Program-made: the position numbers and the translations under genes
Assembly: GCA_020073015.1 (NCBI GenBank)
Contig: JAIQFZ010000073.1
Span: forward strand, 1-44,836
Direction of reading: 5' to 3'
Length of the DNA: 44,836 nt
DNA from: Terriglobia bacterium
Lineage (GTDB): Bacteria; Acidobacteriota; Terriglobia; Terriglobales; Acidobacteriaceae
Notes under the pieces: model-generated
The model's input: only the letters and a program-made list of their open reading frames with translations
What the model was told of the DNA's origin: nothing
The model's database searches: none
Shown here: positions 17,938 to 36,934 of the stretch, in pieces
How positions within the stretch are numbered: the first letter of the stretch is position 1
Layout of the letters: every line of letters starts with the position of its first letter

Positions 17938-17986
17938 GGTCTGAGATTTTTCAACGAGCGGCTAAAGCAATTCTGTGGAGGTGAAC

Positions 17987-18775
17987 GTGGAGATTTTAGT
18001 TTGCGCAAGAAGGGTGCCTGACACTTCGGAAAACGAGATCGAACTCAACAGCGCGGGAAATGACATCGAGCGCGATGAGTTGGTCTATTCCATCAATGAA
18101 CCGGACAACTACGCGGTCGAAGAAGCCCTGCAGATCGTCGCTCGGGTCGGAGGCAACGTCACGGTAGTTACAGTGGGCGGCGAAGACGACGAGGAAATCC
18201 TGCGCCGCGAAATGGCCATGGGCGTTCAGCATGGCGTGTTGATCTCAGACGAGGCATTCACTCGGTCGGACGGCCGGGGTCTCGCAACCATCCTGAAGGC
18301 TTATGTGCAGAAGGGTCGCTACGACTTGATCCTGACCGGCGTCCAGGCGGAGGACGGGGGGGCCCAGGTCGGCGGGATGGTGGCGGCGATGCTCGACTAT
18401 CCGTTCGCCTCGCTGGTGAATTCCATTGAAGTTCTGGACGGCAAGAAGCTGAAAGTCAGCCGGGAAATCGCAGGCGGCAACAAGGAGATGAATGAGATCG
18501 ATCTTCCCTGCGTGCTCTCCATCCAGACCGGCATCAATGAACCGCGTTATGTCGGAATGCGCGGCATCCGACAAGTGGCCTCGTTGCCGATTCCAACGTT
18601 CGACGCGTCCGAGTTGGGAGTTGACCCAGGTTCAGTTGGAGAATCGGCCGCGAAAGTGAAGCGGGTCGACTACTTTGTTCCGACTCTCGGTAAGGGAGCC
18701 GAGATGTTGCAGGGCAGCCGGGAAGAAAACGTCGACAAAGTCTTTGAGTTGGTGGCAGCCAAAGGAGGGTTGTAA
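17987..18775 (+). CDS. etfB: electron transfer flavoprotein beta subunit
   Basis: Binds AMP and, with EtfA, carries electrons from acyl-CoA dehydrogenases to the membrane oxidoreductase encoded just upstream. The N-terminal strand ILVCARRVPDT, the motif INEPDNYAVEEAL and the signature region with LTGVQAEDGGAQVGGMVA are all present; length is about 262 residues. The GTG at 17987 is preferred because TGGAGGTGA precedes it by 2-3 bases and the protein then begins MEILVC. A GTG 12 bases earlier lies inside that ribosome site. The stop is 2 bases before etfA. Group I (housekeeping, beta-oxidation) rather than the bifurcating kind is more likely given the EtfD-like partner, but this is inference. 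Confidence 0.95.
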   Translation: MEILVCARRVPDTSENEIELNSAGNDIERDELVYSINEPDNYAVEEALQIVARVGGNVTVVTVGGEDDEEILRREMAMGVQHGVLISDEAFTRSDGRGLATILKAYVQKGRYDLILTGVQAEDGGAQVGGMVAAMLDYPFASLVNSIEVLDGKKLKVSREIAGGNKEMNEIDLPCVLSIQTGINEPRYVGMRGIRQVASLPIPTFDASELGVDPGSVGESAAKVKRVDYFVPTLGKGAEMLQGSREENVDKVFELVAAKGGL

Positions 18776-18777
18776 CA

Positions 18778-19764
18778 ATGGCGCGAATTTTTGCTTACAT
18801 CGCACACAAAGGTGGCGTGCCTGACGACACTGCAACCCAACTGGCCGCCACGGCAAAACAAATCGATTCCGCTGCCTCACCCACGGCCATTCTCGCCGGT
18901 TGGGGCGCGGACCTCGATGCCGCGTGCAGTACCCTCCGTGCGTCCTACTCGGAAATTTGGAAGATCGCTAGCGAGGCTCTTGCCTATCCCAACGCCGAAC
19001 TGATCCGGCAAGCTCTGGTGAGTGTCCTGCCCAGCGGCAGCATTTTGCTCGTCGCCCATGAACATTTCGGAATCGATCTGGCGCCCGGGCTCTCCATCAA
19101 GATGAACTCGGCTTTTGTGTCCGACGTGTTGGCCATCGATGGAGTTGAGGGGGCCTCTCTCAAAGTGGTTCGCCAGGAATTCGGCGGACAAATGAGCACC
19201 CATGTTCATTGCGACATTTCCTCAGGCGCAGTGGTCACGGTGCGTCCCGGTGCATTCAAGCCCACGGAAAGCGCTGCTGTGGTCGGGCTCGTGGTCGACA
19301 AATCGTCCGAGGTTGGCGTTCTGTCAGCCGGTCGCCGGTATCTGGAGACGGTTGTTGCCGAGTCGGGCGCTGTCGATATCACCAAGTTCAACATTCTGGT
19401 TTCGGTCGGCCGCGGCATCCAGAAACCCGAGAACGTGGCCATCGCGCAGGAACTTGCCGACGCCATGGGTGCGGCCGTGAGTTGCTCACGACCGGTGGTC
19501 GACGCCAAGTGGATGGAAAAGTCCCGCCAGGTCGGCTCCTCCGGAAAAACCGTCAAGCCCAAAGTCTACCTGGCATGCGGCATCAGCGGCGCATTCCAGC
19601 ATCTGGCCGGTATCAAAGGCAACCCGTTCCTGATCGCCATCAACAAGAACCCCAAAGCCCCGATCTTCCAGGTGGCGGACATTGGGATTGTGGACGACAT
19701 CCTGGAGTTCCTCCCCGAATTGACTAACAGAGTCCGCGAAATGAAAACCGCAGTAGCAAAGTGA
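18778..19764 (+). CDS. etfA: electron transfer flavoprotein alpha subunit
   Basis: FAD-carrying half of ETF. The variable N-terminal domain (residues 1-185) is followed by the conserved C-terminal FAD domain: [62 protein letters not shown] (in pieces) and [21 protein letters not shown]. These include the Arg and the SGxxQH contact expected for FAD. It starts 2 bases after the etfB stop and ends 10 bases before the next acyl-CoA dehydrogenase, so the three genes are co-transcribed and the dehydrogenase is a natural electron donor. The length of 329 residues is normal. Confidence 0.95.
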
Positions 19765-19774: not shown

Positions 19775-21451
19775 ATGATTGCAGCCAAGACCCTAAAGCT
19801 GAGTTTGAAGTCGCTGAAGGACTTCGCCAAGAAACGCTTGCCCGACGAGAAACTTATCGAGCTGGATGAAAAGGACGAATGCCCACTCGAAATCGTCCGG
19901 TATATGTGCAGCCCCGACCAGCTGGGCATTCAACTCCTGTTCATCCCGGAAGACTGTGGCGGTTTCGGCGGCGGCGCCTTCGACGTGTACCTGGTTTGCG
20001 AAGAGATGGCGCGCATCGACCTGGGAGTTGCCACGGCGGTGCTGGCCACATTTCTGGGCAGTGATCCGATCACGGTCGGTGCCACTCCAGAGCAAAAGAA
20101 ACTCTGGCTGAGCCGCATCGCGGATGAGGGATTGTTATTCGCCTACGGCGCAACCGAGCCGGAAGCGGGCAGCGATCTGGGAGCTCTCCGCACCACGGCG
20201 GACCGAGTCATGGAGGACGGCCGCGTCGTTGGCTACAAGATCAACGGCAACAAACAATGGATCAGCAACGGCGGAATCGCGGACGCTTACTCGGTCTTAG
20301 CCAACACTCCCAGCGGTCCGAGCTGGTTCATTGTGGAGAAGGGTGCGAAGGGTTTCAGCCACGACGAGCCTGAAGATAAACACGGCATCCGCCTCAGCAA
20401 CACTGCCGCTCTCGCGTTCAGCGACGTTTATGTGGACGCCGATCGGCTGGTCGGCGGTGTGGAAGGCCAGGGATTGAACCAGGCACAGGCCGTATTCGGC
20501 TACACGCGCCTGATGGTGGCGGCGTTTGGCCTCGGCGCCGGCTGGTCCGCTCTCGATCGAGCGATCCCATATTCCACCAAGCGCATCCAGGCGGGAGCAC
20601 CGCTCTCCGAGAAGCAGGGCTACACGCACAAGCTGATCGTGCCGCATGTAGCCCACTTGGAGGCCGCCCGCTCTTACATCGAAGAAACGGCCGAGCGCAT
20701 CGACGCCGGCAACGAAGGCAGCTTGAACACCGAAGGCGCCATCGCCAAGTACATGGCGACGGAGGCTGGCAACGCGGCCGCCGACGCCAGTATCCAGGCC
20801 CTCGGGGGCTATGGCTACACCCACGAATACATGGTGGAGAAGATCAGTCGCGACGTTCGCATCACGACCATTTACGAAGGCACCTCCGAAATCATGGAGA
20901 TGACCATCGGCCGCGACCGCTGGCAGCTCCACCTGAAGACGCGTGGCCAGTATTATCACGAGCAAGCACGCCAGTACGAAGCGCTGCATGCCCGCCATCC
21001 GAATGTGGGCGCTGACGTCGCAGCGCTGGCTCTGCACGGACTGGCGGAAGTGATGGAAAAAGCCCGTCTTGCCCGCCTGACCCGCTACCAACACATTCTC
21101 CTGCGCCTGGGCGAGTGGATCGCATACGCCGAGTGCGCGGGCAGCTTGTGCCGCCGCGCATCGCTCATGGCGGAGGGCAAGCTGAGTGAGAAAGCCAATC
21201 GGCGCTTCGATGCGACCGCACTGGCGGCCCTGAGCCGCATCTTCGCGCGCGAGGCTGCGCTCAAGGTTGCGGAAGAAGCTTTGCGCTGGATCATCGGAGC
21301 CGGAGGCGTAAGCGAGGCCGAGGTGCCAGCGTTTGAAGCAAGTTTAGGAGTGCCCGCCGTTCACCGCTCGCAGGCGGGTCTGATATCGGACATGGATTAC
21401 ATCGCAGATGTTCTGTACGGCCGCGCTAAGCGCACAGAACTAGCTGCCTAG
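19775..21451 (+). CDS. acyl-CoA dehydrogenase family protein (with C-terminal extension)
   Basis: Second acyl-CoA dehydrogenase of the locus. The beta-domain motif [15 protein letters not shown] (about 119-133), WISNGG (about 161-166), [16 protein letters not shown] (about 339-354) and the catalytic base E368 in TIYEGTSE are visible. The C-terminal 170 residues are helical and unlike the other dehydrogenase of the window. GAGG lies 9 bases before the ATG, and the gap to etfA is 10 bases, so it is the direct partner of EtfBA. It is followed after 78 bases by the megasynthase, so it might work on the megasynthase product (desaturation, or degradation of the released acyl-CoA). The substrate cannot be read from the sequence. 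Confidence 0.92.
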
Positions 21452-21529: not shown

Positions 21530-24500
21530 ATGGAAACCACCGCGCATCGAGCCATTGCGATCGTGGGTGCGGGAGCCGTGCTGCCCGATGCCCCGAATGT
21601 GGACGCCTTCTGGCAAAACATCAAGAACAGCCGTTACAGCATTACTGAGGTGGAGCCTGAGCGTTGGGACCCGGCGCTGTATTACGATCCCGATCACAGC
21701 GCGCCGGACAAGACTTATTCGAAGATCGGAGGTTGGGTCCGCGAATTTGTCTGGGATCCGATGAAGTGGCGCCTGCCGATTCCGCCGCGCGTGGTCGATG
21801 CCATGGACGGGGCGCAAAAATGGGCAATCGCGGCCACCCGGGAAGCCCTGGAAGACTACGGCTACCCGAAACGGCCACTGGACCTCGATCGCACCGCCGT
21901 GATCCTGGGCAATGCCATGGCCGGCGAGAAACATTACCTCACCGCGTTGCGCGTGAACTTCCCGGAATACGCCCGCGAGTTAGCGGGGAGCACGAGCTTC
22001 GCGGCGCTCCCGGAGTCGGTGCGGCGCGACATCACCCGCGAATTGCACGACCGCATTGGCAAGTGCTTGCCCCCGGTGACGGAAGACAGCATGCCCGGCG
22101 AATTGGCCAACTGCATCGCCGGCCGCATTGCCAACATCTACAACTTCCACGGCCCGAATTACATTTGCGACGCGGCGTGCGCCTCCGCGATGGCGGCCAT
22201 CAGTTCCGCGATCGAAGGACTCGTGGAAGGAGACTTTGACGCCGTGGTCACCGGCGGAATCGACCGCAACATGGGCGCCCAGACCTTCGTCAAGTTCTGC
22301 AAGATCGGCGCGCTTTCGGCGACCGGCAGCCGTCCGTATGCCGAAGGAGCCGATGGGTTCGTCATGGGCGAAGGCGCGGCCATTTTCTTGCTCAAGCGTC
22401 TGGCCGATGCCGAGCGCGACGGGGACAAGATTTACGCCGTGCTGCGCGGCATTGGCGGAGCGAGCGACGGCAAGGGCAAGGGCATCACTGCTCCCAATCC
22501 CATCGGTCCGAAGCTGGCAATCAAGCGTGGCTGGCAGAATGCCGGCCTGTCGCCCGCCACCGCGACGTTAATGGAAGGCCACGGCACATCGACTCGCGTA
22601 GGCGACCTCGTCGAACTGGAAAGCATGGTGGATCTACTTGGCGGTTTCCATCTCCCCTCCGCCTCCGTGGCGCTGGGCTCGGTCAAGTCCAACATCGGGC
22701 ATCTGAAAGGTGCTGCCGGTGCCGCCGGATTGCTGAAAACCACTCTCGCGCTGCGCGACAAAGTACTGCCGCCTAGCGTCAACTGCCAGCATCCCAATCC
22801 CGACATCGACTTTGCCCACTCGCCGCTTTACGTCAACACCGAACTGAAACCGTGGACGATCCCGCCCGATGGTGTGCGGCGGGCAGGTCTGAGCGCTTTC
22901 GGTTTTGGCGGCACCAACTTCCACGCCGTGCTCGAGGAATATATCCCGCACAGGTTGAACGGCAATGGCAAGCGAACAGTCGCAGTCGGCGACATACCAA
23001 CCGCCGTGATGAACGAGGCAAGCATGAACACGAAGGATGTTTCCCCCACGTCTGCATCTTCTAAGGCGCCGTTACGGGGCGCGCTGGTGATTGGCGCCAC
23101 GTCAGAGACCGCGCTGGCCGAGCGTCTGCGTGCGGCACAAAAGGCCGCCCAGACCGGGCACGCACCGGCACCGGCCGCCCCGGCGGAAGCGGATCTGCGC
23201 GCGCCCGAACGTCTGGCGATCGACTACGTCGACGCTGCCGACCTGGCGACCAAGTCAGCCAACGCGCTTAAAGCGCTGGCCGCCAACCAGCCCGCGATCT
23301 GGAAAGCGCTGCGCGCCCAAGGCATTTTCCGCGGACACGGTCCTGCGCCCAAGGTGGCGTTCCTCTACACCGGCCAGGGTTCGCAGTACGTGAACATGCT
23401 GAAGCCCATTCGTGCCGCCGAACCAATCGTAGCCGAAACCTTTGCCGAAGCCGACCGCATCATGACTCCTCTACTGGGCAAGCCGCTCACCGATTTCATC
23501 TACGTTGACCCGGACGACCCCAAGGCGGTCGCCAAGGCGGACGATGATCTGCGACAGACCGAGATCACGCAGCCAGCAGTATTGGCGATCGATATGGCGA
23601 TGACCCGGCTGTTAGCGGCCTACGGCATCACGCCTGATTTCACCATGGGGCACAGTCTGGGCGAATACGGCGCCCTGATTGCCTCGGGCGCGATTCCCTT
23701 CGCCGATGCTCTGGAAGCCGTCAGCGCCCGCGGACGCGGCATGACCCAGGTGGCAGTCAAGGACCAGGGCTTGATGGCCGCCGTCTTTGCGCCGCTGGAG
23801 GAAGTTGAGCGAACGCTGAAGACGATTGACGGGTACGTGGTCATCGCCAACGTCAACAGCGAGCATCAGGCAGTCATCGGCGGCGCCAGCCAGGCGGTCG
23901 CCCAAGCCATGGAGGTCTTCCAAAAAGCCGGCTTCGAGGTCACAGGTTTGCCGGTCAGCCATGCCTTCCACACCACGATTGTGGCTGGGGCGAGCGAACC
24001 GCTACGGGGAGCGCTCGCGCGCCTGCATCTGGAATCGCCGCGTGTGCCCATCGTGGCGAACGTGACCGGCGAGTTTTATCCCACGGGGTCCGACGTTGTG
24101 CCTCAGATGTTGGACCTTCTCGCGAAGCAGGTCGCCGCTCCCGTGCAATTTGTGAAGGGCTTGCGCACCCTCTACGACGCGGGCGCGCGTGTCTTTGTTG
24201 AAGTGGGCCCAAAGAAAGCGCTGCAGGGATTTGCCGAGGATGTGCTCGGCGTTCATGGCGATGTGGTTTCCTTTTTTACCAATCACCCGAAAACTGGTGA
24301 CATCGCATCGTTCAACCAGACGCTGTGCGGCCTCTACGCGGCGGGATTGGGCCGCGGAACGGCGGAAGCTGCGCGTGAGGTCTCGAGCGTGTCAGTGTCG
24401 ACAGTTGCCGCGCCGCTAGAAAGCCCGAAACCAATTTCCGTGACGCCGCCGATCGCCAGCGTCCCTGCTGCGGAGACACCCGCACCAAGCACCCCGAGCG

Positions 24501-27500
24501 CAAAGACTGCGCCGTCCAATCGCGACCACTTCCTTGAGCTCGGTCATTTGTTTGCGGACGTTCTCGAGCGCGGCTGGCAGATTACCCACGGCCAAGACCG
24601 CGTGCCAACCGAAGTTCCTGTAGTGATCACCGGCGCGGCCTTAGGTCTGCCCGGCACCGAGCGCATCTTCGACGATGGCAACATTGGCCGCATCCTCCGG
24701 GGCGATCAGTTCATCGATGCCATCCCCACTCGCTTCCGCCAAGCCATGCTCGACAAACACATCACGCGCCTGGTGAAGAGCGACAACGGAGGAAGCTTCG
24801 AGACCCTCCACGATCTGGCGGATGTCATCAAGCTGGCAGCCCGCGGAAATGCCTTCGATCTGGAAAAGGAATTCGGAGCGTCCGCGGATCGCGTGGGCGC
24901 CCTCGACCGCGTGACCCAACTGGCAATCGGAGCCGGCATCGACGCGCTGCGTGACGCCGGCATCCCGCTGGTCATGCGCTACAAGACCACCAGCAAAGGC
25001 ACACAACTGCCGGATCGCTGGGGATTGCCCGACGCGATGCGCGACGATACCGGAGTGATTTTTGGCTCGGCCTTCCCCGGCCTCGACTCATTCGCCGATG
25101 AGATGGCGCGCTACTACACCGACCGTGCCCGCCGCGACCAGCTAACCATGCTGGAAAGCGTGCGCGACCGGGTGGTCGAGAACGTTGGACATTCCATCCT
25201 GGCGCAAGAGATGGACCGCCGCATAAACGAGTTGCGCGGCACCATCGAGAAAGAACCGTATGTGTTCGAGCGGCGCTTCCTGCTCAGGGTCTTGTCGATG
25301 GGACATTCACAATTCGCCGAATTCATTGGCGCCCGCGGTCCCAACACGCAAATCAACTCCGCCTGCGCCAGCACCACCCAGGCCGTAGCGCTGGCAGAGG
25401 ACTGGATCCGAGCCGGGCGATGCAACCGCGTGATCGTGATCTCAGCCGACGACGTAACTTCCGACCACCTGCTCGATTGGATGGGCGCCGGCTTCCTCGC
25501 CAGCGGAGCGGCCGCCACCGACGAAAAGGTCGAGGAGGCCGCCATTCCCTTCGATCGCCGGCGGCACGGTTTGATTATCGGCATGGGCGCCGCGGCGCTT
25601 GTGGTCGAGAGCGCGGAAGCCGCCCGCGAACGCGGAATGGCGCTTGTGGTCGAGAGCGCGGAAGCCGCCCGCGAACGCGGAATCCAGCCGATCTGTGAAG
25701 TGTTGAGCTCGGTCACAGCCAACAGTGCTTTTCACGGCACCCGTCTTGATGTCCAGCACATCGGCCAGGTGATGGAAGATCTGATCACCCAGGCCGAAGC
25801 AAACTGCGGCATCTCGCGTCATCAGATCGCACCCCAGACAGTTTTCGTCTCCCACGAGACCTATACGCCCGCGCGCGGCGGCAGCGCTTCCGCCGAGATC
25901 CACGCGCTGCGCCGCGTCTTCGGCGACGTCGCCGACCGCATCGTGATCGCCAACACCAAGGGCTTCACCGGCCACGCCATGGGCACTGGAATTGAAGATG
26001 TGGTCGCGGTGAAGGCGCTCGAAACCGGCTGCGTGCCGCCCGTGGCCAACTTTAAGGAAATTGACCCTGAGCTGGGACAGTTGAACCTGTCCAAGGGCGG
26101 CGTCTATCCCGTCGAGTACGCGTTGCACCTGGGCGCCGGGTTCGGATCCCAGATCAGCATGACACTACTGCGTTCGGTAAGGGCGAAAGATGGAGTTCGT
26201 CCCAGCCCCAACAACCTTGGCTACGCCTATCGCATTGCCGATACGACTGCCTGGAACACCTGGCTGAGCCGGATGGCGGGCCGTCCAGCTGCCGACCTGG
26301 AAGTGGTGCACCACACGCTGCGCGTGCGCGATCAAGGACCGGCAGCGCGAGTCGCGGAAACTGCTTCCGCACTTCGCGCGGCAGCTGTGCCAGCGCCCGC
26401 TCCCCAGGCACCGCCACCCATGCCAGTGGTCGCCGCCAGGCTTCAAGAGGCGAAACCGGCCGCTGCCAAACCGGCGCCACCGCCGCTGAGTGTTAAGGCC
26501 GAACCTCGCGTGGAAGTGAAGGCTGCTGCACCCGCGGGCGACGCGGTGAAAGCGCGGGTACTAGCTCTGGTAGCCGAGAAAACCGGCTACCCGGTTGACA
26601 TGCTCGATCTGGATCTGGATCTCGAAGCCGACTTGGGCGTCGACACGGTCAAACAAGCGGAGGTATTCGCCACCATCCGTGAAGCATACGGCATCGCCCG
26701 TGACGACCAGATCAAGTTACGCGACTTTCCCACGCTGGCCCATGTGATCCGGTTTGTGCACGAACGGCGGCCGGACCTTGTTGCTGAAGCCACATCCTCG
26801 ATGCCCACGCAAGCAAAACAAGAAATCAAGGTCGCGACACCGCAACCCGCGGCGAAACCCGCGAACGACATCACCGGCAATGCGGTCAAGACCGTCGCGT
26901 CTCCCGCCCCGGCAGCGCCAAAGACAGCGGTAGAAATCAAACTCGCGGTACCTGCACCGGCACTCGCCGTTGTGGCTCCGCAAGACGGCGCTGGCGATGG
27001 CGTGAAGGAACGCATCCTGGCCTTGGTCGTGGAGAAGACTGGTTACCCGAAAGACATGTTGGATCTGGACCTGGACCTGGAAGCAGACCTCGGTGTCGAC
27101 ACGGTCAAACAGGCGGAGATGTTTGCGGCGATCCGCGAGATCTACAACATCCCGCGCGACGAAAATCGCAAACTCCGCGACTATCCCACACTCGCGCACG
27201 TCATTCGGTTCGTGTACGAGAAGCGTCCCGACCTGGCAGGCGTCGCGGCCCCGGCAACGTCAAAGGCAGCGGCGGAGATCAATCCAACGGTAGCTGCACC
27301 CGCTGCCCCGGCAACCTCCGTTGTCGCTCCGCAAGACGGCGCTGGCGATGCCGTGAAGGATCGCATCCTGGCCTTGGTCGTCGAGAAGACCGGCTATCCG
27401 AAAGACATGCTGGATCTGGATCTGGACCTGGAAGCAGACCTCGGTGTCGATACGGTCAAACAGGCGGAGATGTTCGCGGACATCCGCGAGATTTACAACA

Positions 27501-30500
27501 TTCCGCGCGACGAGAACCGCAAGCTCCGTGACTACCCCACTCTGGCTCACGTCATCCGCTTCGTGTACGAGAAGCGCCCTGACTTGGCGGCCGATGCTCC
27601 AACCCCGGCAGCACCAAAGCCAGCGGTTGAGATCAAGCCCGCAGAACCGGCGCCTGCTGCACCGGCGGTCACCGTTGCTGTTCCGCAAGACGGTGCTGGC
27701 GATGCAGTGAAGGAGCGCATCCTGGCCTTGGTCGTCGAGAAGACCGGGTACCCGAAAGACATGCTGGACCTCGATCTGGACCTGGAAGCAGATTTGGGCG
27801 TCGACACCGTGAAACAAGCCGAAATGTTTGCGGCCATCCGCGAGATCTATAACATCCCGCGCGACGAAAATCGCAAGCTCCGCGACTACCCCACGCTGGC
27901 CCACGTCATTCGCTTCGTATTTGAGAAGCGTCCGGATTTGGCCGGCGCGGCTCCGGCTCCTGCCCCGCCGACGCCAAGAGCAGCGGAGGAGAGCAAGCCT
28001 ACCGCCCCCAGGGCGGCGCAAGGGCCCACGCCCGAATCTGTTAAGGAGAAAGTGCTGGAGATGGTGGCCCAAAAGACGGGCTATCCCAAAGAAATGCTGG
28101 ACTTGGATCTCGACCTCGAAGCGGACCTTGGGATCGACACGGTCAAACAGGCAGAAATGTTTGCGGCGGTGCGCGCAGCATACAACATTCCGCGCGATGA
28201 GAATCTGAAGCTCCGCGATTTTCCGACGCTCGCCAGCGTCATTCAATTTGCGGTCGACCGGTCGGCTCTAGCAGCTTCTCCCGTTTCTCCCGCAGCGACT
28301 GAGAAGCAAGCAGCGACCCCAGCCGCATCTTCACCCAAGACCGCGCCCCCGGTCGCACGCGTGCGCCCGGCCCTCGCCAGTCTGGACGCAGCAAATAGCA
28401 TTCCACGGCGTGTGCCGGTAGCGACGTTGCGCCCGGCGCTCAACCTGTGTAAACCGACAGGCGTCGTGCTCGAACGCGGCCGCAGGGTGGTAATCATGCC
28501 GGACAAAGGCGGCGTCGGAGAAGCTCTGGCGCAACGCCTGAAAGAGACCGGAGTAGAAGTTCTGCGCATCGAGGACGCGCCGGAGTCAGAAGCGCTGGCC
28601 GCTCGCCTCAAGAACTGGATGGCCGCCGGCCCGGTGCACGGCGTTTACTGGCTGCCCGCGCTCGATGATGAGGGGAACCTCCGCAATCTGGACCTCAATA
28701 CCTGGCATGAAGCCGTGCGCGTGCGCGTCAAACTGCTCTACACCACCATGCGCGCTCTCTATGAGCAAGTCGAGCAGCCGGGCACCTTCCTCGTCTCGGC
28801 CACTCGGCTTGGAGGTCAGCACGGTTACGATGACGCCGGAGCGGTCGCGCCCTTGGGCGGCGCAGTCGTTGGCTTCACCAAAACGTATAAGCGGGAGCGG
28901 ATGGAAGCTTTCGTCAAAGCGGTCGATTTCGATCCGAAGCGCGAGGCAGCAGAAGTCGCCGAAGTCCTCATCGAGGAAACGCTGCGCGATCCCGGTGCCA
29001 TTGAAATCGGCTACAAGGCGGGACAGCGCTGGACGGTTGGGTTGCAGGAACAGCCCGCTGCCGACGGCAAGCCCGGTTTGACGCTGGACGAGAACACCGT
29101 CTTTGTGATCACGGGCGCGGCGGGAAGCATAGTGTCGGCGATCACGGCCGATCTGGCCGCTGCATCCGGCGGCACGTTCTACCTGCTAGATCTGGTGCCC
29201 GACCCCGATCCAGACAATCCTGACCTGACGCGCTTCGTGAGTGACAAAGAAAGCCTCAAGCGTGATCTGTTCGCGCGCATCCAGGCGCGCGGCGAGCGAG
29301 CCACGCCCGCGCTGGTTGAAAAGGAATTGGCGGCCCTGGAGCGGGCGCAGGCTGCCCTTAGCGCGATCGACGCCGTCCGCGCGGCAGGGGGAACTCCGCG
29401 CTATTTCAGCGTCAACCTTGCAGACGCGGAGGGTGTAGCCAAGGTCATCAACCAGGTACGCAAGCAGAGCGGACGCATCGACGTGCTGCTGCACGCCGCT
29501 GGTATCGAACGCAGCCACCCTCTACCCAATAAGGATCCACGGGAATTCGACCTGGTCTTCGATGTCAAGAGCGACGGCTTCTTCAATCTGCTGCACGCCA
29601 TCGGCGACATGCCTCTCAAGGCGACGGTGGGGTTCAGTTCCATCGCCGCCCGCTTCGGCAACGCCGGCCAGACGGATTACAGTTCCGCCAACGATCTGCT
29701 GTGCAAGATCACGTCGAGCTTCCGCACCACCCGGCCGGCTACTCGCGGTATCGCCATTGATTGGACGGCTTGGGGAGGCATCGGCATGGCCACACGCGGT
29801 TCTATCCCGAAAATGATGGAACTGGCCGGCATCGACATGTTGCCGCCCGAAGCCGGCATTCCTCTGATTCGCCGCGAACTCACCACAGGCGGGACCCGCG
29901 GCGAAATCGTCATCGGGCAGCGTCTCGGCGTTCTGCTCAATGAATGGGACGCGACCGGTGGACTGGATACAACCGCCGACAAGAATCGCTTGGCCGCGCA
30001 AGGACCGCTGATCGGGAAGGTCGCATCGTTCGGCCTCTACAGCGGCTTGACGATCAAGAGCACGCCGGATCCGGCCATTCAAGGGTTCTTGCACGATCAC
30101 CAAATCGATGGCACACCGGTGCTACCGGGCGTGATGGGCGTCGAGGCATTTGCCGAAACTGCCCAATGCATGCTTCCCGGCTGGCATATCGAAGCGGTCG
30201 AAGAAGTGAATTTCCTGGCGCCGTTCAAGTTCTACCGCAGCGAGCCGCGCCCGATAACAGTCGAGGCTCAAATTCATCCGCAGGGCGACGCCGTGGTGGC
30301 AGGTTGCCGATTGATCGGCCGCCGGACACTCCCGAATCAAACCGAGCCGCAAGTGACCACGCATTTCACCGCTCATGTGCGGCTAACCAAACAGCCCCCG
30401 AAGGTGGTGAAAGTGCCGGCACTCGGCACTCCAGTAGGACATATCGTTGACGCCGCCGATATCTACCGCCTCTACTTCCACGGGCCCGCGTACCAGGTCC

Positions 30501-30910
30501 TGGAGCGGGCGTGGTGGGACGGAAATCGGATCGTTGGGCTGATGGCCAAGGGCCTGCCCGACAACCACCATCCATCGGAACTGCCGACGCTCATGGCGCC
30601 GCGACTCATCGAACTCTGCTTCCAAACCGCCGGAATCTGGGAGATGGGCGTACAAGGCCGCATGGGTCTGCCGCAGCACATTGATCGAGTCGCGGTAGTC
30701 CGCCCAGATCTCGCCGACGGCAGGCTCTATGCCGTGGTTACGCCTGATCTGGCTCGAGGAAGTTTCAATGCAGAGGTCATGGATACAGCAGGAAACTGCT
30801 ACGTACAACTCAGCGGGTACCGCACGGTGGCGCTGCCCAGCGCCGTCGATTCTGAGCGGTTAAAAGCACTACAGGCCCTCATGTCCGAGGAAGAAGTTAC
30901 GGCGGCGTGA
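21530..30910 (+). CDS. PUFA-synthase-like type I megasynthase: KS-AT-KS-ACP5-KR-DH
   Basis: Iterative type I synthase of the PfaA/secondary-lipid kind, expected to build an acyl chain from malonyl-CoA. KS1 (about 8-470) has C217, H351 and H391. AT (about 620-960) has GHSLGE with S709 and HAFH at H814, the malonyl-type motif. A second KS (about 1025-1555) keeps C1279, H1442 (SHETYTP) and H1482. Five carrier domains follow (about 1669-2245), but at the pantetheine position all have Thr (1706, 1858, 1975, 2093, 2204) in DLG(V/I)DTVKQAE. KR (about 2320-2800) has S2704, Y2717 and N2721. DH (about 2830-3100) has H2857 and E3028 where Asp is usual. No ER, TE or methyltransferase is present. CAGGAGTG precedes the ATG. 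The carboxylase gene follows 46 bases on, and an Sfp-type transferase lies 6 kb downstream. A 45-bp tandem duplication lies in KS2. Confidence 0.93.
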   Translation: METTAHRAIAIVGAGAVLPDAPNVDAFWQNIKNSRYSITEVEPERWDPALYYDPDHSAPDKTYSKIGGWVREFVWDPMKWRLPIPPRVVDAMDGAQKWAIAATREALEDYGYPKRPLDLDRTAVILGNAMAGEKHYLTALRVNFPEYARELAGSTSFAALPESVRRDITRELHDRIGKCLPPVTEDSMPGELANCIAGRIANIYNFHGPNYICDAACASAMAAISSAIEGLVEGDFDAVVTGGIDRNMGAQTFVKFCKIGALSATGSRPYAEGADGFVMGEGAAIFLLKRLADAERDGDKIYAVLRGIGGASDGKGKGITAPNPIGPKLAIKRGWQNAGLSPATATLMEGHGTSTRVGDLVELESMVDLLGGFHLPSASVALGSVKSNIGHLKGAAGAAGLLKTTLALRDKVLPPSVNCQHPNPDIDFAHSPLYVNTELKPWTIPPDGVRRAGLSAFGFGGTNFHAVLEEYIPHRLNGNGKRTVAVGDIPTAVMNEASMNTKDVSPTSASSKAPLRGALVIGATSETALAERLRAAQKAAQTGHAPAPAAPAEADLRAPERLAIDYVDAADLATKSANALKALAANQPAIWKALRAQGIFRGHGPAPKVAFLYTGQGSQYVNMLKPIRAAEPIVAETFAEADRIMTPLLGKPLTDFIYVDPDDPKAVAKADDDLRQTEITQPAVLAIDMAMTRLLAAYGITPDFTMGHSLGEYGALIASGAIPFADALEAVSARGRGMTQVAVKDQGLMAAVFAPLEEVERTLKTIDGYVVIANVNSEHQAVIGGASQAVAQAMEVFQKAGFEVTGLPVSHAFHTTIVAGASEPLRGALARLHLESPRVPIVANVTGEFYPTGSDVVPQMLDLLAKQVAAPVQFVKGLRTLYDAGARVFVEVGPKKALQGFAEDVLGVHGDVVSFFTNHPKTGDIASFNQTLCGLYAAGLGRGTAEAAREVSSVSVSTVAAPLESPKPISVTPPIASVPAAETPAPSTPSAKTAPSNRDHFLELGHLFADVLERGWQITHGQDRVPTEVPVVITGAALGLPGTERIFDDGNIGRILRGDQFIDAIPTRFRQAMLDKHITRLVKSDNGGSFETLHDLADVIKLAARGNAFDLEKEFGASADRVGALDRVTQLAIGAGIDALRDAGIPLVMRYKTTSKGTQLPDRWGLPDAMRDDTGVIFGSAFPGLDSFADEMARYYTDRARRDQLTMLESVRDRVVENVGHSILAQEMDRRINELRGTIEKEPYVFERRFLLRVLSMGHSQFAEFIGARGPNTQINSACASTTQAVALAEDWIRAGRCNRVIVISADDVTSDHLLDWMGAGFLASGAAATDEKVEEAAIPFDRRRHGLIIGMGAAALVVESAEAARERGMALVVESAEAARERGIQPICEVLSSVTANSAFHGTRLDVQHIGQVMEDLITQAEANCGISRHQIAPQTVFVSHETYTPARGGSASAEIHALRRVFGDVADRIVIANTKGFTGHAMGTGIEDVVAVKALETGCVPPVANFKEIDPELGQLNLSKGGVYPVEYALHLGAGFGSQISMTLLRSVRAKDGVRPSPNNLGYAYRIADTTAWNTWLSRMAGRPAADLEVVHHTLRVRDQGPAARVAETASALRAAAVPAPAPQAPPPMPVVAARLQEAKPAAAKPAPPPLSVKAEPRVEVKAAAPAGDAVKARVLALVAEKTGYPVDMLDLDLDLEADLGVDTVKQAEVFATIREAYGIARDDQIKLRDFPTLAHVIRFVHERRPDLVAEATSSMPTQAKQEIKVATPQPAAKPANDITGNAVKTVASPAPAAPKTAVEIKLAVPAPALAVVAPQDGAGDGVKERILALVVEKTGYPKDMLDLDLDLEADLGVDTVKQAEMFAAIREIYNIPRDENRKLRDYPTLAHVIRFVYEKRPDLAGVAAPATSKAAAEINPTVAAPAAPATSVVAPQDGAGDAVKDRILALVVEKTGYPKDMLDLDLDLEADLGVDTVKQAEMFADIREIYNIPRDENRKLRDYPTLAHVIRFVYEKRPDLAADAPTPAAPKPAVEIKPAEPAPAAPAVTVAVPQDGAGDAVKERILALVVEKTGYPKDMLDLDLDLEADLGVDTVKQAEMFAAIREIYNIPRDENRKLRDYPTLAHVIRFVFEKRPDLAGAAPAPAPPTPRAAEESKPTAPRAAQGPTPESVKEKVLEMVAQKTGYPKEMLDLDLDLEADLGIDTVKQAEMFAAVRAAYNIPRDENLKLRDFPTLASVIQFAVDRSALAASPVSPAATEKQAATPAASSPKTAPPVARVRPALASLDAANSIPRRVPVATLRPALNLCKPTGVVLERGRRVVIMPDKGGVGEALAQRLKETGVEVLRIEDAPESEALAARLKNWMAAGPVHGVYWLPALDDEGNLRNLDLNTWHEAVRVRVKLLYTTMRALYEQVEQPGTFLVSATRLGGQHGYDDAGAVAPLGGAVVGFTKTYKRERMEAFVKAVDFDPKREAAEVAEVLIEETLRDPGAIEIGYKAGQRWTVGLQEQPAADGKPGLTLDENTVFVITGAAGSIVSAITADLAAASGGTFYLLDLVPDPDPDNPDLTRFVSDKESLKRDLFARIQARGERATPALVEKELAALERAQAALSAIDAVRAAGGTPRYFSVNLADAEGVAKVINQVRKQSGRIDVLLHAAGIERSHPLPNKDPREFDLVFDVKSDGFFNLLHAIGDMPLKATVGFSSIAARFGNAGQTDYSSANDLLCKITSSFRTTRPATRGIAIDWTAWGGIGMATRGSIPKMMELAGIDMLPPEAGIPLIRRELTTGGTRGEIVIGQRLGVLLNEWDATGGLDTTADKNRLAAQGPLIGKVASFGLYSGLTIKSTPDPAIQGFLHDHQIDGTPVLPGVMGVEAFAETAQCMLPGWHIEAVEEVNFLAPFKFYRSEPRPITVEAQIHPQGDAVVAGCRLIGRRTLPNQTEPQVTTHFTAHVRLTKQPPKVVKVPALGTPVGHIVDAADIYRLYFHGPAYQVLERAWWDGNRIVGLMAKGLPDNHHPSELPTLMAPRLIELCFQTAGIWEMGVQGRMGLPQHIDRVAVVRPDLADGRLYAVVTPDLARGSFNAEVMDTAGNCYVQLSGYRTVALPSAVDSERLKALQALMSEEEVTAA
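25595..25684 (+). repeat. 45-bp in-frame tandem duplication inside KS2
   Basis: Two adjacent 45-base units (25595-25639 and 25640-25684) differ only at the last base, so ALVVESAEAARERG is encoded twice in a row (residues 1356-1370 and 1371-1385). One copy fits the normal KS helix after GMGAAA; the second is an insertion. The near identity points to a recent event or an assembly slip. Confidence 0.95.
26535..28255 (+). repeat. five tandem carrier-protein repeats within the megasynthase
   Basis: Five carrier domains separated by Ala/Pro-rich linkers. The Thr codons at the attachment position begin at 26645, 27101, 27452, 27806 and 28139. Copies 2-4 are nearly identical in DNA over about 260 bases (about 26975-27237, 27326-27588, 27680-27942), spaced 351-354 bases. 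Copies 1 and 5 are more diverged. This implies recent expansion or gene conversion of the middle repeats. Confidence 0.9.
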
Positions 30911-30956
30911 CGAACCCAACTCGACTTAGCGTGACGATCCGCTGATTGGAGTGCTT

Positions 30957-33900
30957 ATGCAGGCTGAATTTCAACGCGTAGCTATCGTCAATCGTGGTGA
31001 AGCCGCCATGCGCTTCATTCACGCCGCCCGCGAGTTCAATCACGAACACGGCACCTCGTTGTGCGCAATCGCGCTCTTCACCGATCCCGACCGTCATGCC
31101 ATGTTCGTCCGTGAGGCGGACGAAGCAGTGCCCCTCGGCCCCGCTCAGGTCATCGACGCAGCCACCCATCACTCCAAGAGCAGTTACGTCGACTATGGCC
31201 GGCTCGAACAGGCCTTAGTGGCCGCGCGCGCCGAGGCGGTGTGGGTGGGTTGGGGCTTTGTGGCGGAGCACGCTGATTTTGCCGACCTGTGCCGCGAGAT
31301 GGGCCTCGTCTTCATCGGCCCGGATGGCGACGTGATGCGGCGCTTGGGCGACAAGATCGCTTCGAAGCTTCTGGCCGAGCAGGCGCAAATATCGGTAGCG
31401 CCCTGGAGCGGCGGCCCGGTGGAGACGCTCACCGACGCCCAACACCACGCTGAGCGCTTAGGTTATCCACTCCTCATTAAGGCCACGGCCGGAGGTGGCG
31501 GCCATGGGATTCGTCGGGTGAATTCGGCAGGCGAGCTTCCCCAAGCCTTTGAGAGCGCCCGAGCCGAGGCATTCAAGGCCTTTGGGAACCCAACCGTTTT
31601 CATGGAGCAATTGTTGCAGGGCGCACGCCACGTCGAAGTCCAGATTATCGCCGATCACTATGGGACGACATGGGCCGCCGGGGTGCGCGACTGCACCATC
31701 CAGCGGCGCCACCAGAAAATTCTAGAAGAAGCGCCTTCGCCGGCGCTGTCGGTGGGACAGGATCTCGCGCTGCGCGAATCCGCAGTTCGTTTGAGTCAGG
31801 CAGCCGCCTATCACAACGCCGGTACCGTGGAGTTCCTGTACCAGCCGGAAACCCAGCGCTTCTCATTCATGGAGATGAACACCCGCCTGCAAGTCGAGCA
31901 CCCGGTGACCGAACGAACGACGGGCCTCGATCTGGTCAAGCTTCAGATTCATGTGGCGCGCGGCGGCCGCCTCGAAGGGCAACCGCCGCACACGAGCGGT
32001 CACGCCATCGAGGTCCGGCTCAATGCCGAAGATGCCGACAACGGCTTCGCCCCTGCCCCGGGCACCATTGAGCGCTTCCGGATTCAGACCGGACCCGGCG
32101 TGCGCATTGACACGGGTGTAGCGGAAGGTGATGCCGTTCCCGCAGACTTCGACTCCATGATCGCCAAAATCATCGCCTTCGGTCACAACCGCAAAGAGGC
32201 CCTTGCCAGACTCCAGGGGGCACTGCGTGAGAGCGTCGTGGTCATCAAAGGCGGCGCCAGTAACAAAGCGTTCCTCCTGGAGTTGCTGAACCGCCCTGAG
32301 GTGCAGAGTAGTGCAGTAGACATCGGCTGGCTGGATCGTTTAGCCGCTAGCGGCGAGCACCTCTCCCGGCGTTACGCCGATGTGGCCCTCGTAGCTGCCG
32401 CCCTCGAAGCCTACGAGGCGGAGTTGGCTGTCGAGCAGACCCAGTTCTATGCCTCGGCCGTGCGCGGGCGTCCGCAGGTGCGGAAAGGGGTAGGCCGGAG
32501 CGTGGCGCTGCGTTATCGCGGCCATGCCTATTCGCCGAAGACCTATCGCCTCGGACCCCGGCAGTATCGAGTGGAGTTGGACGGATCGGGCGTCGACGTT
32601 CACATCGACCGCCTCGGTCAGTTCGAATACTGGCTGACTTGTTTCGGACGCCGCTTCCACGTCGTCTCCGTAGTTCAGGGACTGAGCTACCGGATCGAGG
32701 TGGAGGGTGTGTCCCACCGCCTTGATCGTGACGACGGCGGTGTGGTGCACGCCCCCGCGCCCGCAGTGGTCGTTTCCATTGCCGTGAAACCGGGCGACAT
32801 GGTCTCCGCCGGAGATCGCCTCGCTGTGCTGGAAGCTATGAAAATGGAAATGCCCGTCGTCGCTCCCTTCTCTGGAAAAGTCCGGTGCGTGCTGACCATA
32901 CCCAACGTGCAAGTCGACACCGGAGCCCCTCTTCTGCAGATCGACGCTGCTGAGGATGGCCAGGCGGTCGCGGCCGGCGAGCGCGTCGTTCTTGGCGCTT
33001 CGCTCGCCCCCGACGGAAATCGAGAGGCGGTTCCTTCTCCCTGCAGCCAGAACTTGAAAGAACTCCGCCAGTTCATGCTCGGCTTTGATGTTGACCCAGC
33101 GCGTACCACGAAGTTGCTCGCTGAATGGGGCAAGGATTTCCCCACGGACAGCGACGAAATCCGGCAGTGCGAGAACGAAATCCTTAACATCTTTGTGGAC
33201 CTATACTCGCTCTTCCACCGCCAACCGGAGTTGGACGATCCCACGAGTGGCGAAGAGCCCAGTGCTGAGACTTACCTGTTTTCCTACTTGCGTATGCTCG
33301 AGACGCGCGGCGAGGGCCTGCCACCGGTGTTTGTCGACTCGCTCCGGCGTGCGCTCGCACATTACGGAGTGCGGACCCTGGATCCTTCGCCCGAGTTGGA
33401 AGAGAGTCTGCTCTGGATCTTCAAATCACACCAACGGCTGGAGCAGCAGCTAGGGCCTGTCATGCTGCTGCTCGAACAACGTCTGCAGCGCGTACAGGCC
33501 TTGGCGCCGCATGCGGACGAATCGTTTCGCACGCTCCTGGACCGGATGATCTCCATGACCCATGGACTCTTCCCCGCGGTTGGCGACCTGGCCCGGGAGG
33601 TGCGCTATCGGTACTTCGAACAGCCGCTGTTGGAGCGCGCCCGCAAGCAGATCTACGCGGAAGTGGAAGATCACCTCGCCTATCTTGCCGCCCATCCTGA
33701 TGCCGAAGATCGCCGCGAAAGAGTCCGCGCTCTGGTCGAATGTCCGCAGCCTGTGGTGAGCCTGTTCGCGGGCCGCTTCGCCGCCGCGACTCCTCCCTTG
33801 CGCCAATTGATGTTGGAGGTTCTGACCTGGCGATACTATCGAATTCGAATGCTCATGGACTTTCGCTCCCGCGAGGCGGACGGGCATTCCTATGTGTCGG

Positions 33901-36572
33901 CCGAATACGATCATGAGGGGAAACGGATCCACGTCTTCACCACCCACGCCGAGTATCTCCATCTACCGGATGTGGCGCGAAGGCTGTTTCCTGCGCTCGA
34001 GGAAGTACCCATCGACCATGACATCGTCATCGATTTTTATGTGTGGGATTCCGGCCTGCCAGGCGAACCGGGGGCGGTGCAGCAGCAAGTTCACTCCATG
34101 CTCAACCAATCCGGCTTTCCGCGCTCCATCCGGCGCATCGTGGTTGAAGTCGGCGGCTCGGGTTCCGCTCATGGTACGGACGGCATGCTGCATTTCACCT
34201 ATCGCCCCAGCGAGAACGGGTACGAAGAGGAGAAGTTCTACCGTGGGCTCCATCCCATGATGGGGAAACGGCTCCATCTCTGGCGACTCAGCAATTTCAA
34301 GATCGAACGCCTGCCCTCCGTCGAAGATGTCTACCTCCTCCGTGCCGTTGCTCGCGATAACCCGAAAGATGAGCGCCTGTTCGCTTGTGCGGAAGTGCGC
34401 GATCTGACTCCGGTGCGGGACAAAACCGGCCGCATCGTGCAGTTGCCGCATCTGGAACGTATGTTGATGGAAGCGCTCGCTGGCATCCGGCTGGTTCAGT
34501 CGCGGCGCCCACCCAAGGAGCGCCTCTACTGGAATCGGATCCTGCTTTACGTGTGGCCCCCCTTCAATCTCGAGCCCGATGAACTGAAAGACATTGTGCA
34601 CAAACTGCTCCCCGCGACCGAAGGCCTGGGGCTGGAACAAGTCGCGGTGCGCGCTCGCATTCCCAATCCGCAGACCGGCGAGTTGCGCGACATGCTGGTG
34701 CGGATCTCCGCCCCGGGCGGCAGGGGTTTGCTCATGACCTTCCGGCCCGCCAACAAATTGCTTCCCATCAAGCCGCTGGCCGAGTATGACCAGAAAGTCG
34801 TTCGCATGCGCCAGCGCGGCCTGCTCTATCCGTACGAAATCGTAAGAATGCTCACTCCCACGTTGGACGACACGCGCGCCGAATTTCCTCCCGGAGATTT
34901 TGTCGAGCACGATCTTGATCCCGATGGCCGTCTGGTTCCCGTGGATCGTCCCTATGGCAAAAACAAAGCCAACATCATCGTGGGCGTCATCCGCAATTTC
35001 ACTGCTCAGTACCCCGAGGGTATGACCCGCGTCGTGCTGCTCGGTGATCCCAGCAAGGACCTGGGCGCCCTCGCGGAAGCCGAATGCCGGCTCATTATTG
35101 CCGCCATCGATTTGGCGCAACAGATGGATGTTCCGTTGGAATGGTTTGCCATCTCAGCCGGCGCGAAGATCTCCATGGAAAGCGGCGTGGAGAACATGGA
35201 TTGGATTGCCCGCGTCCTGCGCAGCCTGGTCGACTTCACCCAAGCCGGCGGCGAAGTAAATCTGATCATCAACGGAATCAACGTAGGAGCCCAGCCGTAC
35301 TGGAACGCCGAAGCGACCATGCTCATGCACACCCGGGGCATCCTGATCATGACGCCCAAAGCGGCCATGGTGCTCACCGGTAAACGTGCCTTGGACTATT
35401 CGGGCAGTGTCTCAGCCGAGGACAATCTGGGAATCGGCGGCTACGATCGCATCATGGGTCTGAACGGCCAGGCGCAATATAAGGCCCAGGACATCGATGA
35501 AGCGTGCCACATCCTCATGCGCCATTACGAGCACACTTACAAAGCGGCGGGCGAGCGATTCCCCCGCCGGGTCCTAACCACCGATCCCGTCGACCGGGAC
35601 GTCCAGGCCTACCCGCACAGTCGCAATGGCGAGGAAGGCTTCACTCGGGCGGGCGAGATCTTCTCCAACGAGACGAACCCCGGACGCAAGCGTTCCTTCG
35701 ATATTCGCAGAGTAATGATGGCCGTCGTGGACCAAGACCATCCACCTTTGGAACGCTGGGGAGGAATGCGGGCGGCCGAAAATGCCGTGATCTGGGACGC
35801 TCATCTCGGGGGCTATCCCGTGTGCCTCATCGGCATCGAATCCCGGCCACTACCCCGCTTGGGATTTGTGCCCGCCGACGGGCCGGATCAATGGTGTGCC
35901 GGCACCCTCTTCCCGCTCTCTTCGAAAAAAGTGGCTCGGGCCATCAATGCGGCCACCAACAATCGGCCGGTCGTGATCCTGGCCAATCTCTCGGGCTTTG
36001 ATGGTTCCCCGGAGTCCATGCGCAAGCTGCAGCTTGAGTACGGTGCCGAGATTGGTCGCGCCGTCGTCAATTTCAGAGGCCCCATGATCTTTTGCGTGAT
36101 CTCACGCTATCACGGAGGCGCTTACGTGGTTTTCTCGCGGGCGCTGAACGAACAACTCAAAGTGGTGGCCTTGGAGGGAGCCTATGCATCTGTCATCGGC
36201 GGCGCGCCGGCGGCGGCAGTAGTCTTCGCCAGCGAAGTCGAGGCCCGAGCTCGCAAAGATGCGCGCCTGCAGGGGTTGACACAAGCGATGGCTCAGGCCG
36301 AAGGCGCGGAGAAGGGCCGGCTGCGCGCCCAGTGGGAGCAACTCTTTAAAGTCATACACTCCGAGAAACTGGGCGAGGTGGCCGACGAATTTGACCGGGT
36401 GCACAGCGTGCAGCGTGCCCTCAAAGTCGGCGCGCTCCATGAGATTATTCCACCCGCCAACCTTCGCCCTTATCTCATCCATTCGGTCGAAGACGCGGTA
36501 GGGAAAGAGGAGGAACTACGATCCGCTAAGCCTCAGGCTGAGAAATCTGACACCGTGGAAGCCGCCGCGTAG
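30957..36572 (+). CDS. single-chain biotin-dependent acyl-CoA carboxylase, eukaryotic-ACC-like
   Basis: Expected to make malonyl-CoA (or a related extender) from acetyl-CoA, bicarbonate and ATP. The order is biotin carboxylase (about 1-450; Gly-rich loop KATAGGGGHGIR near 173-184, EMNTRLQVEHPVTE near 306-319), linker, biotin carrier (about 595-665; K629 in EAMKMEM), a long middle region (about 690-1290) resembling the ACC-central domain of eukaryotes, and carboxyltransferase (about 1290-1835; LGDPSKDLGAL, FAISAGAKISMESG, SAEDNLGIGGYDRIM, WDAHLGGYPVCLIGIESR, ILANLSGFDGS). Typical bacterial enzymes split these activities over separate subunits. GTG at 30951 is in frame but ATG at 30957 has TGGAG at good spacing. 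It lies 46 bases after the megasynthase, so it is probably its dedicated extender supplier. Confidence 0.92.
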   Translation: MQAEFQRVAIVNRGEAAMRFIHAAREFNHEHGTSLCAIALFTDPDRHAMFVREADEAVPLGPAQVIDAATHHSKSSYVDYGRLEQALVAARAEAVWVGWGFVAEHADFADLCREMGLVFIGPDGDVMRRLGDKIASKLLAEQAQISVAPWSGGPVETLTDAQHHAERLGYPLLIKATAGGGGHGIRRVNSAGELPQAFESARAEAFKAFGNPTVFMEQLLQGARHVEVQIIADHYGTTWAAGVRDCTIQRRHQKILEEAPSPALSVGQDLALRESAVRLSQAAAYHNAGTVEFLYQPETQRFSFMEMNTRLQVEHPVTERTTGLDLVKLQIHVARGGRLEGQPPHTSGHAIEVRLNAEDADNGFAPAPGTIERFRIQTGPGVRIDTGVAEGDAVPADFDSMIAKIIAFGHNRKEALARLQGALRESVVVIKGGASNKAFLLELLNRPEVQSSAVDIGWLDRLAASGEHLSRRYADVALVAAALEAYEAELAVEQTQFYASAVRGRPQVRKGVGRSVALRYRGHAYSPKTYRLGPRQYRVELDGSGVDVHIDRLGQFEYWLTCFGRRFHVVSVVQGLSYRIEVEGVSHRLDRDDGGVVHAPAPAVVVSIAVKPGDMVSAGDRLAVLEAMKMEMPVVAPFSGKVRCVLTIPNVQVDTGAPLLQIDAAEDGQAVAAGERVVLGASLAPDGNREAVPSPCSQNLKELRQFMLGFDVDPARTTKLLAEWGKDFPTDSDEIRQCENEILNIFVDLYSLFHRQPELDDPTSGEEPSAETYLFSYLRMLETRGEGLPPVFVDSLRRALAHYGVRTLDPSPELEESLLWIFKSHQRLEQQLGPVMLLLEQRLQRVQALAPHADESFRTLLDRMISMTHGLFPAVGDLAREVRYRYFEQPLLERARKQIYAEVEDHLAYLAAHPDAEDRRERVRALVECPQPVVSLFAGRFAAATPPLRQLMLEVLTWRYYRIRMLMDFRSREADGHSYVSAEYDHEGKRIHVFTTHAEYLHLPDVARRLFPALEEVPIDHDIVIDFYVWDSGLPGEPGAVQQQVHSMLNQSGFPRSIRRIVVEVGGSGSAHGTDGMLHFTYRPSENGYEEEKFYRGLHPMMGKRLHLWRLSNFKIERLPSVEDVYLLRAVARDNPKDERLFACAEVRDLTPVRDKTGRIVQLPHLERMLMEALAGIRLVQSRRPPKERLYWNRILLYVWPPFNLEPDELKDIVHKLLPATEGLGLEQVAVRARIPNPQTGELRDMLVRISAPGGRGLLMTFRPANKLLPIKPLAEYDQKVVRMRQRGLLYPYEIVRMLTPTLDDTRAEFPPGDFVEHDLDPDGRLVPVDRPYGKNKANIIVGVIRNFTAQYPEGMTRVVLLGDPSKDLGALAEAECRLIIAAIDLAQQMDVPLEWFAISAGAKISMESGVENMDWIARVLRSLVDFTQAGGEVNLIINGINVGAQPYWNAEATMLMHTRGILIMTPKAAMVLTGKRALDYSGSVSAEDNLGIGGYDRIMGLNGQAQYKAQDIDEACHILMRHYEHTYKAAGERFPRRVLTTDPVDRDVQAYPHSRNGEEGFTRAGEIFSNETNPGRKRSFDIRRVMMAVVDQDHPPLERWGGMRAAENAVIWDAHLGGYPVCLIGIESRPLPRLGFVPADGPDQWCAGTLFPLSSKKVARAINAATNNRPVVILANLSGFDGSPESMRKLQLEYGAEIGRAVVNFRGPMIFCVISRYHGGAYVVFSRALNEQLKVVALEGAYASVIGGAPAAAVVFASEVEARARKDARLQGLTQAMAQAEGAEKGRLRAQWEQLFKVIHSEKLGEVADEFDRVHSVQRALKVGALHEIIPPANLRPYLIHSVEDAVGKEEELRSAKPQAEKSDTVEAAA

Positions 36573-36874: not shown

Positions 36875-36934
36875 CAGCCCGGAGGGTCGCCTGTCCTAAC
36901 CCTCAGAAGTATTCGTGAAACTAAGTGGTCAACC

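Follow-up and report, generated by a model that had tools for sequence, protein, structure and literature searches.

We analysed a 44,836-nucleotide stretch of DNA from an acidobacterial genome (Terriglobia bacterium, contig JAIQFZ010000073.1; hereafter, the window), which encodes a PfaA-like iterative synthase with five tandem acyl carrier protein (ACP) domains. In all five, Thr stands where carriers have the Ser that receives 4'-phosphopantetheine. According to our sequence comparisons, these Thr residues are probably the phosphopantetheine acceptors of the carriers, served by a dedicated transferase. With slightly less assurance, we propose that Thr is a second natural phosphopantetheine acceptor: in a PfaA-related branch comprising two families and several phyla, it would be modified by co-encoded or fused transferases, forming an orthogonal pair beside the Ser carriers. 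The synthase gene and its five carriers are placed as follows.

21530..30910, + strand: PfaA-like iterative synthase of 3126 amino acids, with the order ketosynthase (KS), acyltransferase (AT), second KS in the position of the chain length factor (CLF), five carriers, ketoreductase (KR), dehydratase (DH) (Pfam; NCBIfam TIGR02813; ATG start).
26561..26782, + strand: carrier repeat 1, codon of Thr1706 at 26645-26647 (sequence).
27017..27238, + strand: carrier repeat 2, codon of Thr1858 at 27101-27103 (sequence; AlphaFold model).
27368..27589, + strand: carrier repeat 3, codon of Thr1975 at 27452-27454 (sequence).
27722..27943, + strand: carrier repeat 4, codon of Thr2093 at 27806-27808 (sequence).
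28055..28276, + strand: carrier repeat 5, codon of Thr2204 at 28139-28141 (sequence).

The site reads DLGVDTVKQAE in four of the repeats and DLGIDTVKQAE in one. An initial annotation of this DNA had reported Thr in place of Ser in all five carriers, within a motif DLG(V/I)DT(V)KQAE; its residues and codon positions were confirmed in the open reading frame 21530-30910. The 74-residue domains of repeats 1-4 contain no Ser at all, and that of repeat 5 contains two, at domain positions 61 and 70. Pfam family PF00550 gives five matches in the synthase (26-33 bits, above the curated cut-off of 20.8); elsewhere in this genome there are six further PF00550 carriers, each with Ser at the site. In the AlphaFold model of repeat 2 (27008-27229; pLDDT 86), the second helix, residues 32-46, begins at the Thr (Thr32 of the model), and Foldseek matches the predicted fold to ACPs with a TM score of about 0.8. 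Judged by sequence and predicted fold, the window domains are ACP-fold carriers, a variant of the known ones: the Ser that defines PF00550 as its phosphopantetheine attachment residue is replaced by Thr in five of five.

Five cases out of five had been taken to rule out a random mutation. This argument is weak by itself because repeats 2-4 are near-copies of one another, and it is the invariance of Thr in relatives that carries the conclusion. Therefore, relatives were sought through the second KS domain, which is blind to the carrier site. The scan of named genomes with the KS alignment A1 gave at least 554 relatives, the best 80 of which were kept for carrier reading and neighbourhood counts; among the matches listed, the nearest named relatives of the window synthase are metagenome-assembled genomes (MAGs) of Acidobacteriota (Terriglobia). 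In the window's phylum, the second KS was found at E <= 1e-40 in 25 of 396 genomes, counting that of the window (26 loci). In the phylum of Paractinoplanes, two of 296 genomes matched strongly (E about 1e-280), followed by FabF-like matches at 1e-43 or weaker. Carriers were aligned with a profile masked at the site, from seeds chosen by a pattern allowing S or T, and were readable in 72 of the 80 named loci and in 23 of the 26 loci of the phylum search. Short sequence accounts for the misses in eight named loci, which stop no more than 0.4 kb beyond the second KS, in L017, which ends 0.1 kb past it, and in L023, which enters a run of N.

Among 337 aligned carriers, the site residue is Thr in 334, a gap in two, Arg in one and Ser in none; once 71 exact duplicates are dropped, 266 distinct carriers remain (Thr 263, gap 2, Arg 1, no Ser). 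The Arg (L068) and one gap (L115) fall at ambiguous bases that break the frame, and the other gap (L102) at a contig end. All four Thr codons are used at the site (ACC 138, ACG 100, ACT 13, ACA 12 among the distinct carriers), while two further columns with conserved Thr, 8 and 58, hold Ser in four and two cases. By record title, the Thr carriers belong to Acidobacteriota, Actinomycetota, Calditrichota, KSB1, Krumholzibacteriota and Myxococcota, among others. Genomes titled Calditrichota and KSB1, and one titled Bacteroidota, fall in a single phylum of the classification used for the search, and nine of the 82 genomes in the phylum to which the Calditrichota genome belongs gave carrier matches. 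In a plasmid collection, tblastn matched 546 records, of which only Nonomuraea gerenzanensis exceeded 60% identity, without annotation. A sequencing error or an accident of a single genome was rejected, since Thr carriers recur across many genomes and several phyla. The suggestion that similar carriers of this Asp-Thr (DT) type may exist in related giant synthases is thus borne out, both in these relatives and in a second family.

The Thr occupies the site of the canonical Ser, because PfaA carriers (DSIKRVE, the DS type) align with those of the window family without a gap and their Ser falls on the Thr. In the phylum of L108 (titled Myxococcota), 48 of 112 genomes had carrier matches at E <= 1e-7, which fell into bands. 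The top band is the window synthase family. The second consists of synthases of about 3000-4100 residues that are also of DT type, reading ELEADLGIDTVKQAEI. The third, reading KTGYP..LEADLGIDSIKRVEIL, is of DS type and again aligns ungapped, Ser on Thr. In the carriers of the PfaA-like DS synthases the site Ser lies at column 29, the column of the DT Thr, and the three of the eleven such synthases that were scanned are all PfaA (1579-1818 bits). The change from Ser to Thr is accompanied by R to Q and V to A in the same helix (SIKRV versus TVKQA, the second place being I or V). At least four genomes (G713, G738, G786, G808) have a second-family DT synthase plus a DS synthase. A carrier tree built on 69 columns has poor resolution; leaving AcpP aside, its 17 DS rows fall in one cluster. 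L231 represents a DS carrier of yet another kind.

The initial annotation had also considered that the serine might be elsewhere. Among the 266 distinct carriers there is no conserved Ser column, the maximum being 32/264. Because the masked profile had been seeded from the DT family, the scan was repeated with a control model built from Ser carriers only, and with a smaller version of it without PfaA or two AcpP seeds. Both recovered Ser carriers in each of the eleven PfaA-like control stretches (L232-L242). When applied to the window and L027-L130, the Ser-only model found 263 DT carriers and five edge pieces of such carriers; it gave no Ser carrier below E = 1. Such non-DT matches as remain in DT loci are either chance fragments or parts of DT carriers; the strongest is a 22-residue antisense fragment (E 0.49 with the smaller model). 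A Ser elsewhere was consequently rejected on three grounds, namely the lack of a conserved Ser column, the ungapped PfaA alignment and the lack of a credible Ser carrier in the DT loci.

If Thr is modified, an enzyme must accept it, and the candidate is encoded two genes downstream of the synthase.

36866..37726, + strand: Sfp-type 4'-phosphopantetheinyl transferase (PPTase), a TTG reading frame from 36866 with an ATG at 36935 (Pfam PF01648/PF17837).

The presence of an Sfp-type transferase in the locus had been noted before, and Pfam, motifs and predicted fold agree on it. The enzyme has the motifs GCDLE and WSGKE; across 42 PPTases searched by regular expression, GxDxE occurs in 40 and W[STC]xKE in 38, with L229 reading WAAKE. 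Its AlphaFold model (pLDDT 84) matches the AASDHPPT:ACP (2cg5) and Sfp:PCP (4mrt) complexes. Among the 39 named loci with 10 kb of downstream sequence, 25 have the transferase inside the sequence examined. A homologue was present in all 15 genomes searched further (14 without one in the examined stretch, plus L127). Of the 14 misses among the 39 loci, this search covered all but five (L052, L067, L071, L087, L115). In L051, L054, L062, L073, L079, L094 and L098, the position and strand of the homologue are compatible with a location at the end of the stretch or slightly beyond it, with contigs compared by number only. A PF01648 scan of ten genomes found nine with exactly one transferase scoring 232-307 bits against the locus profile, all others scoring at most 65. 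The eleven DS stretches, whose flanks are limited, gave no match to that profile.

Each of the six second-family members fetched in full (L224-L229) has the transferase as a C-terminal domain of the chain that bears the DT carriers, as seen by profile search and alignment, with Pfam run on two of the six. No DS motif was found in these six full-length chains, and in three of them (L226, L228, L229) the carriers lie at separate places of the chain.

The catalytic domains of the window synthase were compared with those of its relatives in an alignment of 49 full-length rows, 48 of them distinct (L036 equals L089).

21548..22786, + strand: first KS, with the triad C217-H351-H391 (Pfam; triad intact in 49/49 rows).
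23360..24229, + strand: AT, with S709 and H814 (Pfam; intact in 49/49 rows).
24497..26239, + strand: second KS, in the CLF position of Type R synthases, with C1279-H1442-H1482 intact (alignment A1; 49/49 rows).
29345..29776, + strand: KR, with S2704-Y2717-N2721 (Pfam; 49/49 rows).
30005..30850, + strand: DH, two Pfam hotdog matches, HxxxGxxxxP with H2857 (Pfam; His in 48/49 rows, one gap).

Cys-His-His of both ketosynthases, Ser and His of the AT, and Ser-Tyr-Asn of the KR are thus present in every row; in the DH, His and Pro are found in 48 of 49 rows (one gap) and Gly in 47. A decayed synthase was rejected because these residues are intact, and the chain potentially contains two active ketosynthases. 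TIGR02813, the NCBIfam model of PfaA, scores 1031.9 bits in the window synthase, in three stretches (cut-off 1010.1). Within the second KS, a perfect 45-nucleotide tandem duplication (25594-25683) adds 15 residues with respect to 12 relatives of alignment A1; it is either a recent duplication or an assembly artefact.

Other genes surround the synthase on the same strand.

14071..19764, + strand: WS/DGAT, Fe-S/CCG protein and electron transfer flavoprotein (ETF) genes (Pfam; kept in many acidobacterial loci).
19775..21451, + strand: acyl-CoA dehydrogenase-like enzyme of 558 amino acids, directly upstream of the synthase (Pfam; conserved neighbour).
30951..36572, + strand: one-chain acetyl-CoA carboxylase-like protein with biotin carboxylase, biotin carrier and carboxyltransferase (Pfam).

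The most constant neighbour is the acyl-CoA dehydrogenase-like gene, which lies upstream on the same strand in 57 of the 58 named loci with at least 5 kb of upstream sequence (the exception is L110). It is 63-92% identical in its best segment and more conserved than the transferase. Of the 39 named loci for which 10 kb of downstream sequence is available, 34 contain the carboxylase. The set of dehydrogenase, synthase, carboxylase and transferase genes is found again in both Acidobacteriota and Actinomycetota, the transferase often being on the other strand in the latter. Such a conserved neighbourhood suggests a conserved lipid pathway, and the WS/DGAT, Fe-S/CCG and ETF genes perhaps belong to the same lipid locus as the synthase. 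Adjoining this locus, at 39796-41580, lies a GMC oxidoreductase that scores 883.8 bits with the NCBIfam cholesterol oxidase model (cut-off 850).

We hypothesize that a 4'-phosphopantetheine arm is esterified to Thr 1706, 1858, 1975, 2093 and 2204, and that the Sfp-type transferase accepts Thr as its substrate residue. On these arms, malonyl and the growing acyl chains would travel between the AT, the two ketosynthases, the KR and the DH of an iterative lipid synthase, malonyl-CoA being presumably supplied by the adjacent carboxylase, and the product class would be a lipid. The upstream flavoenzyme, the acyl-CoA dehydrogenase-like protein, may act on the product or on an intermediate; as Pfam finds no enoyl reductase (ER) domain in the window synthase, we propose that it perhaps acts on carrier-bound chains. 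The initial annotation had left a choice between modified Thr and carriers working without pantetheine. The former is favoured by the sequence data, because the transferase is linked or fused and the catalytic residues are intact; the latter has become the less favoured of the two.

Several observations weigh against Thr as the acceptor. In E. coli ACP, the S36T mutant is described as not modifiable by 4'-phosphopantetheine, not functional and unable to support growth (PMC3340395), and it is also described as losing IscS binding (PMC13343975). Since AcpP in E. coli was the subject of those reports, they show that Thr is rejected there, not by every transferase. An older study reportedly made the Ser-to-Thr change in spinach ACP. 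Within our own survey, one of the ten genomes scanned with PF01648 (G402, a MAG) lacks a locus-type transferase, and the His of the SxSH motif is changed to Asp in eight actinobacterial locus transferases (L097, L099, L103, L109, L119, L121, L122, L127). In the deeper relative L230 the motif is DTVKQAT, and the second repeat is degenerate, its site residue being Ala. In L022, which is distant (52% identical), a stop follows the second KS and no carrier is found in the remaining 0.8 kb to the contig end; this locus is an unexplained exception to the pattern. Finally, no single "Thr pocket" was identified in the transferase; the tree of the enzyme, itself unresolved, gives no one origin for it.

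The unresolved tree, together with the fact that no clear specificity residue was found, would also suit a scenario in which Thr is modified by a general transferase of the cell, the linked enzyme has no special adaptation to it, and the residue itself is a neutral relic. We consider this improbable: the transferase is linked or fused, and a neutral residue should not have left zero Ser in 266 distinct carriers, although the codons are one base apart. Somewhat more credible, but still unlikely, is that the DT repeats are never pantetheinylated. They would be spacers or docking modules, while a Ser carrier from another locus, such as the fatty-acid ACP, acts in trans and is the one served by the linked transferase. 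The window's genome does have six Ser carriers elsewhere, and a natural ACP without site Ser or pantetheine is described, the mitochondrial ACP of Plasmodium, which has Phe. In that case, according to the same source, the loss of Ser accompanies the loss of the mitochondrial type II fatty acid synthesis pathway (FASII) and of the transferase, the opposite pattern to ours (PMC8547962). Besides, no credible Ser-type carrier was found in the loci examined, the second-family transferase shares its chain with DT carriers and no others, and the invariance of DTVKQAE is hardly expected of a pure spacer.

Two further alternatives dispense with the canonical arm or move it. An acyl group esterified directly to the Thr hydroxyl, with no pantetheine arm, would fit the invariance of Thr, the one point in its favour. 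With so short a side chain, an oxygen ester would hardly reach the several catalytic centres, and there would be no substrate for the transferase; to our knowledge, no acyl carrier is known to work in this way. We regard this possibility as very remote. Even less probable is that another residue of the carrier domain is the attachment site. No supporting point was found for it, and besides the missing Ser column, the conserved Thr of columns 8 and 58 exist, yet the Ser of DS carriers sits at column 29 with the DT Thr.

Phosphopantetheinylation of Thr, should it be proven, would matter beyond this locus. Ser is treated as the universal phosphopantetheine site, to the point that the Ser-to-Thr change is used as a loss-of-modification control (PMC3340395). 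If Thr is a natural site, annotation based on motifs would misjudge such synthases as having dead carriers, the chemistry of the transferases would be broader than thought, and a naturally orthogonal pair of carrier and transferase would be available for labelling and pathway engineering. If, on the contrary, Thr is not modified, the situation is stranger still, namely an iterative synthase whose catalytic sites are intact but which has nowhere to attach pantetheine. In the open-licence literature we found no description of Thr-type carriers, although an earlier description is possible. A Thr adjoining the site Ser is described as hindering Sfp (PMC12391972, PMC11744666), and the chitinimine ACPs are described with a conserved Ser (PMC13291983).

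Among known systems, the window locus resembles the Type R secondary lipid synthases. These synthases, of unknown product, are described as PfaA homologues with the layout KS-MAT-CLF-ACP(3-6)-KR and a downstream PPTase (Shulse and Allen 2011, PMC3098273). Compared by this published description, the window has the same layout and the downstream PPTase; it also shares with Koribacter an acetyl-CoA carboxylase gene between synthase and PPTase, and the SGAP and ISLSH of its transferase fit the PPTase motifs P1a and P1b'. It differs from the description in a DH after the KR, a complete Cys-His-His in the "CLF", and Thr in the five carriers. The words "threonine" and "serine" do not occur in the main text of that paper.

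The mitochondrial ACP of Plasmodium, as presented in PMC8547962, is likewise a natural ACP without the attachment Ser. It differs in having Phe, no pantetheine, and lost FASII and transferase, whereas the window family keeps its catalytic domains and its transferase. The S36T mutant of E. coli ACP has the same Ser-to-Thr change at the same site, but according to the published accounts it is an engineered, unmodifiable control (PMC3340395, PMC13343975), whereas Thr is natural and invariant in the window family.

PfaA itself (TIGR02813) is similar to the window synthase in its tandem carriers, in KTGYP...LEADLGID and in the KS-AT-carriers-KR order. The DS relatives score 1579-1818 bits (three of three scanned) versus 1031.9 for the window; PfaA carriers read DSIKRVE, while the DTVKQAE of the window departs from the DSIK type, and the window has a second KS and a DH on the same chain. 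In the enediyne synthases (PKSE), a C-terminal PPTase is fused to an iterative synthase that has a single Ser carrier and another domain order. The second DT family is similar to them in this fusion of the transferase to an iterative synthase.

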